DNA of 12,282 nucleotides from Dehalococcoidia bacterium. GTDB taxonomy: Bacteria; Chloroflexota; Dehalococcoidia; Dehalococcoidales; UBA1222. A program made the translations under genes and the position numbers. This document shows, one piece after another, positions 2,160-4,025 of the stretch (position 1 is the first letter of the stretch; every line of letters begins with the position of its first letter). The notes under the pieces are model-generated. The model was not told the origin of the DNA. It saw only the letters and a list, made by a program, of their open reading frames with translations, and made no database searches. The DNA lies in contig WQXK01000022.1 in the NCBI GenBank assembly GCA_009784845.1, positions 1 through 12,282 of the forward strand, read 5' to 3'.

Positions 2160-4025
2160 ATGCTCAAAGGTCTTGGCGTTACATTCAAGAACCTTTTAAA
2201 GCGCCCCGTGACAGTGCAATACCCCGAGCAAAGGCTGAACGTCTCGCGGCGTGAGCGCGGCACGGTGCTGGCATGGTCAATGGAGAAATGCACCGGCTGC
2301 TACACCTGTCAGCGGGCATGCCCCCATAAATGCATACGCATTGAAACATCCCCAGAGGGACAGAAATACGACGCCGTTGTGCCATGCGTACAACGCTGTC
2401 CGGCTCACGTTGATGCGGCGCGCTATATCCGCTGCATCGCCTCAGGCAAACCGGAGGAAGCAGTGGCCGTGATACGCGAAAAACTGCCTCTCCCTTCTGC
2501 ATGTGCCTATATCTGCGCTCATCCCTGCGAGAACAACTGCAACCGCGGCGAAATCGATGAGCCTATATCCATCAGAAAACTTAAGCGCTATGCCATAGAT
2601 CATGACAATGGTATGTGGAAAGCAAATGTCAGGCAATCACCCGCATCAGGCAAGAAAGTGGCCGTAATCGGTGCCGGACCGGCAGGGCTTACGGTTGCCT
2701 ACTACCTTGCACGCAAAGGGCACAGCGTCACTGTATTTGAAGCATTGCCCGCCACCGGCGGTATGATGAAAGTCGGCATTCCCGACTACCGCTTGCCGCC
2801 GAAAATTCTGGAGGGTGACATCAAAGAGATTGAGAATATCGGTGTGAGCATCAAAACCGATATCAGAATAGAATCGGTGGATAAGCTGCTTGACGACGGC
2901 TACAATGCAGTCTTCGTGGGGGTAGGCGCGCATCAGGCCATGGCTCTCGGGGTTCCGGGTGATGCCGAAGATGGAGTCTTGGGCGGAGTGGATTTCTTGC
3001 GCGATGTCAATCTCGGAAATCATCGCAAGCTGGGCAAGCGCGTGGCTGTAATCGGCGGCGGCAATACCGCCATCGACTGCGCCCGCACAGCTGTGCGCGA
3101 AGGAGCCGAAGAGGTCAGTTTAATTTATCGCCGTACACGCGCCGAAATGCCGGCTGCCCCTGAGGAAATCGAAGAAGCAGTGGATGAGGGTGTCAAGCTG
3201 GTGTTTTTAGCTGCCCCGTCCAGAGTATTACGTCAGGACGGCAAGCTTCAGCTGGAGTGCGTTCGTATGAAGCTGGGTGCTGAGGATTCCAGCGGCAGAC
3301 GCAGACCTGAGCAGATTGCCGGCAGTGAGTATCTCATTGAACTTGAGCACATCATTTCAGCCGTGAGCCAAAGTCCCATCATACCCAAGGAATTTGCCTT
3401 GTCCACCGACCGCGGCAGCCGCCTGATAGTAGGCAACGAAACGCTGACTACCACAAAAGCCGGGGTATATGCCGGAGGTGATGCCGTGCTTGGACCAGCA
3501 ACAGTGATTGAGTGCATTGCGCAGGGGCGCCTTGCGGCAAGTTCGATGGACAAATATCTCGGAGGCGACGGCGACATCAAAGAAACGCTGGCTACGCCTG
3601 AGAGTCCCTTGCAGCGCATAGGTGCACCGCGCGAAGGCTTCCGTCCGCACAACGATACCATTGAACACGGCAGGAGATTGAGCACGTTTGAAGGTGTGGA
3701 AATAGGCTGGAGCAAGGAAGATGCCGAGTCCGAGTGTGCTCGCTGCCTGCGCTGTGACGTACAGTACAAACCCGAAAAATGGGAACTCAAGGGCGGGCAA
3801 TGCATCTACTGCGGTCTGTGCGTCGAGGCATGCCCGTTTGATGCGCTTTATATGGGAACGGAATATGAGCGTTCCAGCTACCGCTTATCCGAGCAGACAC
3901 TACCTAAAGAAGAACTGCTCACGCCGCAAAAGCGGCAGGCCAGCGGCTACTACCATAGTGAAATCGCGCGCACTCTGCCTGAGCAGACACTGTGCATTGA
4001 TAAGACAAAAGACAAGAAGAAATAG
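2160..4025 (+). CDS. nuoI: NuoI ferredoxin subunit with a GltD-like NAD(P)H:FAD oxidoreductase module inserted between its two 4Fe-4S motifs
   Basis: NuoI normally carries clusters N6a and N6b and passes electrons to NuoB. Here it is 621 residues, several times the usual length. Residues 1-71 are NuoI: start MLKGLGVTFKNLLKRPVTVQ, then the first 4Fe-4S motif, C44-C47-C50-C54-P55. From about residue 72 the chain becomes a GltD-family protein, with a Cys-rich region (C76, C80, C115, C119, C123, C127), an FAD Rossmann fingerprint GAGPAG at 171-176, an NAD(P) fingerprint GGGNTA at 299-304 with YRRTRAEMP at 323-331, and the FAD-closing AGGDA at 438-442. C526, C529 and C532 end the module. NuoI then resumes with C548-C551-C554-C558-P559 and DALYMGTEYER. 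I chose the ATG at 2160, 16 bases after nuoH, because it matches the usual NuoI N-terminus; earlier in-frame codons overlap nuoH. No stop or frameshift interrupts it. Family and domain calls are firm. The NAD(P)H dehydrogenase role is inferred. Confidence 0.93.
   Translation: MLKGLGVTFKNLLKRPVTVQYPEQRLNVSRRERGTVLAWSMEKCTGCYTCQRACPHKCIRIETSPEGQKYDAVVPCVQRCPAHVDAARYIRCIASGKPEEAVAVIREKLPLPSACAYICAHPCENNCNRGEIDEPISIRKLKRYAIDHDNGMWKANVRQSPASGKKVAVIGAGPAGLTVAYYLARKGHSVTVFEALPATGGMMKVGIPDYRLPPKILEGDIKEIENIGVSIKTDIRIESVDKLLDDGYNAVFVGVGAHQAMALGVPGDAEDGVLGGVDFLRDVNLGNHRKLGKRVAVIGGGNTAIDCARTAVREGAEEVSLIYRRTRAEMPAAPEEIEEAVDEGVKLVFLAAPSRVLRQDGKLQLECVRMKLGAEDSSGRRRPEQIAGSEYLIELEHIISAVSQSPIIPKEFALSTDRGSRLIVGNETLTTTKAGVYAGGDAVLGPATVIECIAQGRLAASSMDKYLGGDGDIKETLATPESPLQRIGAPREGFRPHNDTIEHGRRLSTFEGVEIGWSKEDAESECARCLRCDVQYKPEKWELKGGQCIYCGLCVEACPFDALYMGTEYERSSYRLSEQTLPKEELLTPQKRQASGYYHSEIARTLPEQTLCIDKTKDKKK
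2373..3764 (+). other. Inserted GltD/DPD-like flavin module inside nuoI (residues ~72-535)
   Basis: This is a sub-feature of nuoI covering the roughly 464 residues absent from ordinary NuoI. It is a complete module, not a fragment. It starts with an abbreviated first cysteine pair (PCVQRCPAHVDAARYI), continues with a CAYICAHPCENNC stretch and a helical DEPISIRKLKRYA segment typical of the Fe-S domain in GltD, dihydropyrimidine dehydrogenase and NfnB-like proteins, then two Rossmann folds, and ends with ECARCLRCD. In characterised relatives such a module moves electrons between NAD(P)H, FAD and 4Fe-4S clusters. Removing it leaves about 157 residues that read continuously as NuoI, which is why I call it an insertion rather than a tandem fusion. 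The boundaries are approximate to about 5-10 residues. Confidence 0.88.

Follow-up and report, generated by a model that had tools for sequence, protein, structure and literature searches.

The fused gene and its architecture

The stretch of DNA analysed here (the window) comprises 12,282 nucleotides of a Dehalococcoidia bacterium (contig WQXK01000022.1, positions 1 to 12,282, forward strand) and holds the nuoD-to-nuoN part of a complex I operon, where the nuoI slot is occupied by a fused gene, nuoI*, whose product is a NuoI divided by an inserted flavoenzyme-type module. In the preliminary description of the locus the gene was read as one uninterrupted frame of 621 codons, which is borne out: the frame 2160-4025 on the plus strand has 621 codons and a stop and is open throughout. 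It is noted that an in-frame TTG lies at 2133, nine codons upstream of 2160 and overlapping the 3' end of nuoH. Since the N-terminus that it yields is, in the alignment, that of most relatives, the product probably has 630 amino acids and is started at this TTG. The parts of the gene are as follows, with residues counted from the ATG at 2160.

2133 to 4025, plus strand: fused nuoI* gene, with a probable TTG start at 2133; the first ATG of the frame is at 2160
2160 to 2357, plus strand: N-terminal half of NuoI, residues 1-66 (TIGR01971, NF004537; alignment with 42 ordinary NuoI)
2289 to 2324, plus strand: first cluster motif CxxCxxCxxxCP (C44, C47, C50, C54), Cys in 34 of 34 fusions
2367 to 3764, plus strand: inserted FAD/NAD(P)H/iron-sulfur module, residues 70-535
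2382 to 2606, plus strand: Fer4_20 / DPyD domain II part of the insert, with C76, C80, C115, C119, C123, C127 and K142 (PF14691, expectation value (E) 3.8e-17; Cys counts; K142 aligned to StnC K170)
2652 to 3527, plus strand: FAD and NAD(P) Rossmann folds, Pyr_redox_2 (PF07992, E 8.5e-30)
3744 to 3755, plus strand: C529xxC532, the final Cys pair of the insert, in 34 of 34 fusions
3765 to 4022, plus strand: C-terminal half of NuoI, residues 536-621 (domain and PDB sequence searches; alignment with 42 ordinary NuoI)
3801 to 3836, plus strand: second cluster motif CxxCxxCxxxCP (C548, C551, C554, C558), in 34 of 34 fusions

The three-way split of the protein, into NuoI at about residues 1-66, a GltD/Fer4_20/Pyr_redox_2 part (GltD/DPyD-II-like) at about 70-535 and NuoI again at about 533-605, comes from NCBIfam, Pfam and PDB sequence searches, with model matches at E 1.5e-137 for the insert and 7.8e-24 for NuoI, both far above chance level. 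As described earlier, GAGPAG, GGGNTA and AGGDA all lie between the two CxxCxxCxxxCP motifs (C44-C54 and C548-C558). The separation of these motifs, formerly put at about 490 residues against 25-40 normally, is 494 in the window protein when measured between the last Cys of motif 1 and the opening Cys of motif 2, and 493-498 in 33 of 33 fusions, while it is 29-30 in 42 of 42 ordinary NuoI.

The fusions and the 42 ordinary NuoI give a clean two-block alignment with all eight NuoI cysteines in common. All 34 fusions keep these eight cluster cysteines; the Pro that follows is missing from one of the 34 at motif 1 and from three at motif 2. Over the shared parts the shell (the protein with the insert removed) is 47-56% identical to ordinary Dehalococcoidia-type NuoI. 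In the predicted model the strand-helix-strand order expected of NuoI flanks the insert on both sides with moderate confidence (strand 36-39, helix 49-53 and strand 59-69 before it; strand 534-543, helix 553-557 and strand 563-566 after it; predicted local distance difference test score, pLDDT, 63-86 in blocks of ten). In a first model the NuoI parts were poorly predicted (mean pLDDT 70.6), and the value rose to 81.4 after ordinary NuoI rows had been added, so that the second model is not independent of NuoI homology. Fold searches gave GltD-type and other flavoprotein chains and no NuoI chain among the 50 matches listed, which is no evidence against a NuoI fold.

Kinship and predicted cofactor residues of the insert

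The insert was at first called GltD-like. The kinship stands and can be refined: the fold match to 9bov_A has 46% identity and 2.4 Å over 445 residues, the identity to StnC (8oh5_C) is 44%, and Pfam and fold searches find Fer4_20 and Pyr_redox_2 with the StnC/NfnA fold, so that by sequence and fold comparison the insert is of the StnC/NfnA type. Among the sixteen Cys of the fused protein, 15 are kept in 34 of 34 fusions and C115 in 32 of 34; sixteen would suffice for four [4Fe-4S] clusters. K142, which corresponds to the StnC ligand K170 in an ungapped alignment, is invariant in both fusion alignments (32 and 21 rows), the proximal-cluster ligand position thus holding Lys as in StnC and not Glu as in NfnB. 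Across the fusion alignments the glycine motifs for FAD and NAD(P) are conserved, and the Arg-Arg pair 324-325, presumably a contact to the phosphate of NADPH, is kept in 32 of 34 fusions. Because of this pair and of the StnC kinship, which itself points to NADPH, NADPH is more likely than NADH to be the substrate of the insert. Relative to the sibling genome G291, the ratio of nonsynonymous to synonymous substitution rates (dN/dS) is 0.088 for the insert and 0.076 for the whole fused gene, showing that the fused gene, insert included, is under purifying selection.

Note also that locus L147 (8914-10821) and protein P0034 form a subclade with Leu-Glu for the Arg-Arg pair of the NAD(P) fold and with all cluster Cys retained. 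A candidate reading is that in this subclade the use of nicotinamide has changed or been lost.

Recurrence in relatives

NuoI homologues with the same internal insertion do exist. A query of the first 80 residues only gave 31 protein clusters of 614-648 amino acids, a few of them named Dehalococcoidia or Dehalococcoidales, and all 31 align over both NuoI halves and the insert. With the divergent protein of genome G224 as the query, P0034 and P0035 were added, P0034 bringing the clusters with the whole architecture to 32 and P0035 being incomplete. In the class sample the fusion is present in 10 of 393 genomes (nine at full length, one, G316, divided over two contigs), and in the order holding G350 and G291 it is present in 26 of 156 (22 at full length, three ended by contig edges, and G316), a count that excludes the insert-only matches of G750, G388 and G355. 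A phylum-wide draw gave three of 400 genomes, each already among the class matches. The fusion lies on a single 1.12-Mb contig in G224, and in the nearest genome, G291, the DNA is 94.7% identical over window 1-7320 and the fused protein has 25 differences in 621 residues. A scan of genome contigs with two generic patterns kept at least 80 loci, which are GltD-like matches, and no full-length fusion was found in five genomes picked from them. A mixed alignment of the fusions with GltD proteins was dropped, since it paired NuoI Cys with insert Cys.

P0035 is a 608-amino-acid predicted protein where NuoH is in frame with the nuoI* start, on one 2.8-kb contig; the join may be a sequencing or assembly deletion.

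The fused copy appears to be the only NuoI of its genomes. In none of the 10 fusion genomes of the class sample does any NuoI pass the cut-off, the top two matches being the two halves of the fusion and the others weaker and partial; the separate normal nuoI that was raised earlier as an objection is not found in these genomes. Each of the 10 also has one strong NuoH, adjoining the fusion, with a weaker second NuoH elsewhere in G242, G273 and G118 (109-125 bits, over the Pfam cut-off). For comparison, 333 of the 393 genomes of the class have a NuoI match at E <= 1e-14, 60 of them over the cut-off, and the best matches listed span the whole model without interruption.

Origin of the insertion

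Free-standing kin of the insert in Dehalococcoidia comprise two kinds of fusion, NuoF-GltD (L101, L100) and NuoG-type ferredoxin-GltD (L103), L101 adjoining a NuoG-like molybdopterin gene; their identity reaches 57.5% to the window insert and 77% to that of G350. In the shell tree 30 of 34 fusions form one clade (support 98/95), while the other four, L143 (G350), L215 (G779), L220 (G759) and L221 (G753), fall among ordinary NuoI. The G350 shell is 81-83% identical to the ordinary NuoI of G301, the only other genome of its family in the sample, and of P0124. The inserts of the same four genomes form a clade (100/99) beside the free-standing proteins of G360 and G388 (87/95). One origin is recovered in 0% of 200 bootstrap trees of the shell (the bootstrap being not fully settled), in 2% of those of the insert, and in 0% of those of a smaller insert set with G350 alone of the four. 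These trees suggest that the same NuoI loop received an insertion twice, though one origin is not rejected, because the approximately unbiased (AU) test gives p 0.087 for the shell and 0.393 and 0.163 for the two insert sets. Eight divergent ordinary NuoI rows, among them long-branched and short ones, were left out of the shell tree, and the 34-fusion trees left out four of 14 newly fetched fusions, L217-L219 (truncated) and L227. Of the GltD-like rows, 30 of 105 were dropped in the large set, and 24 and 21 free-standing rows were kept in the smaller sets.

Operon and neighbouring genes

In seven of the 10 genomes read, a single contig carries the whole operon A-B-C-D-H-I*-J-K-L-M-N; the window itself covers D to N. 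The operons of G340 and G350 end inside nuoL at the contig edge and that of G316 extends over two contigs, and the gene names A, B and C were checked with Pfam in four loci. In these 10 genomes the fusion operons leave no room for E, F or G. The ordinary operons read in L153, L154, L156 and L157 have no E/F/G from A to the point where the sequence stops. NuoD of the window retains the His of PSTHG and the Tyr of the DY pair (alignment to 2fug_4), and the cysteines are in place in the aligned NuoB of G291, residues that we take to be quinone-site and N2 ligands, respectively. It had been argued from co-expression with H and J-N that the gene belongs to a working enzyme; what the sequence shows is co-location in one operon. 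The other complex I genes of the window are the following.

3 to 1058, plus strand: nuoD, 5' end outside the window (PF00346, E 1.8e-96; aligned to Thermus Nqo4, 2fug_4)
1058 to 2143, plus strand: nuoH (PF00146, E 1.3e-112)
4033 to 4539, plus strand: nuoJ (PF00499, E 3.2e-30)
4542 to 4847, plus strand: nuoK (PF00420, E 5.7e-31)
4851 to 6740, plus strand: nuoL (PF00361, E 5.4e-79; PF00662, E 4e-19)
6737 to 8260, plus strand: nuoM (PF00361, E 6.4e-65), M from operon position
8273 to 9763, plus strand: nuoN (PF00361, E 1.2e-65), N from operon position

The nuoN gene (8273-9763) stands apart from its neighbours: its protein is 69.7% identical to that of G291, while D, H, I*, K, L, M and TatD are 91-99% identical, its guanine-plus-cytosine (GC) content falls to 0.41-0.47, and GC at third codon positions (GC3) is 0.40, versus 0.60 in nuoL. 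Judged from these sequence features, a recombinational replacement of this one subunit is probable. After nuoN there follow, by Pfam, tatD and then an HhH-GPD gene like nth. Of the eight fusion loci that extend as far as nuoN, seven have tatD (9767-10573 in the window) behind it, the exception being G224, and the ordinary operon L154 has it there too. It is a conserved neighbour of no obvious respiratory role. Window 11896-12282 on the minus strand holds a C-terminal fragment resembling, by eye, a P-type metal ATPase (GTGTDVAIEASDI), with no Pfam match at E 0.001.

Discussion

We propose, with a probability of about 0.72, that the fused protein is subunit I of an 11-gene complex I, with an electron-input enzyme inserted between the two halves of its dicluster ferredoxin. 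In the proposal, the FAD of the insert would be reduced by NAD(P)H, more likely by NADPH, and the electrons would pass one at a time across the two [4Fe-4S] clusters of the insert to the NuoI clusters N6a and N6b, from there to N2 in NuoB and then to an acceptor at the NuoB/NuoD site, with the membrane arm of H and J-N pumping protons. NuoEFG would then be dispensable, because the insert would supply the electron input. The preliminary description had already made subunit I the NAD(P)H-oxidising unit of a complex I variant, and the sequence supports it, the enzymatic role being what we infer. We also consider, tentatively and at less than even odds, that the 11-gene operon encodes a self-sufficient NADPH-linked proton pump and that the same module has been inserted at least two times into the same NuoI loop in Dehalococcoidia, the loop being a natural socket for input modules.

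The proposed enzyme can be compared with known systems. The 11-subunit complex I (nuoABCDHIJKLMN) of Dehalococcoides, Desulfitobacterium and others is like the fusion operon in gene set and order and has no NuoEFG; its donor, however, is given as unknown (PMC11238625) or tentatively as an F420 module (PMC4959651), whereas the fusion carries a flavoenzyme-type module inside subunit I. The Nuo of Dehalococcoidia and other Chloroflexi is likewise described as 11-subunit and without an input module, with nuoEFG in a separate operon in one partial genome (sources including PMC4959651 and PMC6005880). For other variants lacking NuoEFG, input is by ferredoxin in cyanobacterial NDH-1, by F420 (FpoF, proposed) or by BfuABC (PMC4959651, PMC11238625, PMC9304861). 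In Nuo-Bfu of Geobacter, as in the fusion, NuoEFG is replaced by another input module, but BfuABC are separate subunits and NuoI has no insertion (PMC9304861). In the StnABC and NfnABC transhydrogenases (8oh5, 9bov, 9n5u), the GltD-like domain of StnC/NfnA is matched by residues 68-535 of the fused protein, through the last CxxC and with the Lys ligand kept. For StnC it is reported that this domain binds NADPH and FAD and that two [4Fe-4S] clusters hand the electrons onward; there its partner in the chain is a NuoG-like domain and the electrons go to a NuoEF-like pair that bifurcates (PMC10482914), while the insert of the fusion would feed NuoI. Canonical NuoI/TYKY shares both cluster motifs and their flanks with the fusion, which is interrupted by about 465 residues. 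The NuoF-GltD and NuoG-type ferredoxin-GltD proteins (L101, L100, L103) are the closest free-standing kin of the insert, yet they are tandem domain fusions and not insertions. The literature searched, where subscription journals lie mostly outside the coverage and supplements are excluded, yielded no account of a NuoI interrupted in this way.

Several observations weigh against the proposal of a forward-running, NADPH-fed complex I. The window protein scores 75.7 bits with TIGR01971, below the curated NuoI cut-off of 113.05; with both halves matching and divided by the insert, it is, on this sequence evidence, a NuoI-derived fusion rather than a canonical NuoI. The confidence of the predicted model is moderate on the NuoI parts and poor at residues 1-32, 569-574 and 596-621. 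The genomes are mostly drafts of unstated completeness. D. mccartyi, a relative with an ordinary 11-subunit Nuo, reportedly showed no Nuo subunit in the gel slices (PMC6005880). The other such observations concern the acceptor and the donor, and each of them bears on an alternative.

As to the acceptor, MqnC was sought in 16 genomes, 15 of which carry the fusion, and found in none, and MenD passed the cut-off in none of 17 (16 of them fusion genomes), with weak matches in four. No standard menaquinone route is therefore seen in the lineage, in genomes that are maybe incomplete, and forward quinone reduction is not obvious. This contrasts with the complete quinone-type complex I of the fusion genomes; quinone salvage, another acceptor or reverse operation is possible. 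In reverse operation the wiring would be the same, with the proton gradient driving electrons from quinol or another donor to NADP+ and NADPH being made, and Nfn, of the same fold, is described as completely reversible (PMC10482914). The sequence favours neither direction, but the forward sense is that drawn for the 11-subunit Nuo of Dehalococcoidia (PMC4959651), and we consider the reverse sense unlikely.

As to the donor, NuoF-like sequences lie outside the operon in all 10 fusion genomes, full-length in eight, and weak and partial only in G291 and G118, with none over the cut-off, so that another electron input is possible. The insert could then be a docking or entry module for reduced ferredoxin or for a NuoF-type protein coded elsewhere, with nicotinamide oxidation secondary or lost. 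The free-standing relatives of the insert, being NuoF-GltD and NuoG-type ferredoxin-GltD fusions, are consistent with such a role, as is the replacement of the Arg-Arg pair by Leu-Glu in two of 34 fusions. By contrast, the other 32 keep the pair, conservation extends to the glycine motifs for FAD and NAD(P), and the operon has no NuoF gene; this role seems improbable to us. Still less probable is that the FAD bifurcates electrons to ferredoxin and the complex as NfnB does, because K142 is Lys where NfnB has Glu and the non-bifurcating StnC has Lys (PMC10482914), and the operon has no gene for a ferredoxin or second-flavin partner. Finally, although four of the 22 full-length genome matches are flagged with one internal stop, an assembly chimera or a pseudogene is rejected as next to impossible, since both junctions are in frame in 32 clusters and 22 genomes, with relatives in independent genomes carrying the same junctions, since in L222 and L224, the two of those four that were read, the stop is terminal (the frame being open to residue 615 of 621), and since the gene stands in DNA closely matched by G291 with dN/dS well below 1.

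On the proposal of an NAD(P)H-fed subunit I, the insert would give a complex lacking any other known electron input its own inlet. The electron feed of complex I variants without NuoEFG was called unresolved in a 2024 study (PMC11238625), and in one lineage a candidate input is now seen covalently built into the electron-accepting subunit, so that one protein would be enough to test the question. A site of NuoI that tolerates a 50-kDa insertion is identified, and an input module of complex I may be acquired in a single step. The presence of such an enzyme would alter the predicted metabolism of uncultured Dehalococcoidia.
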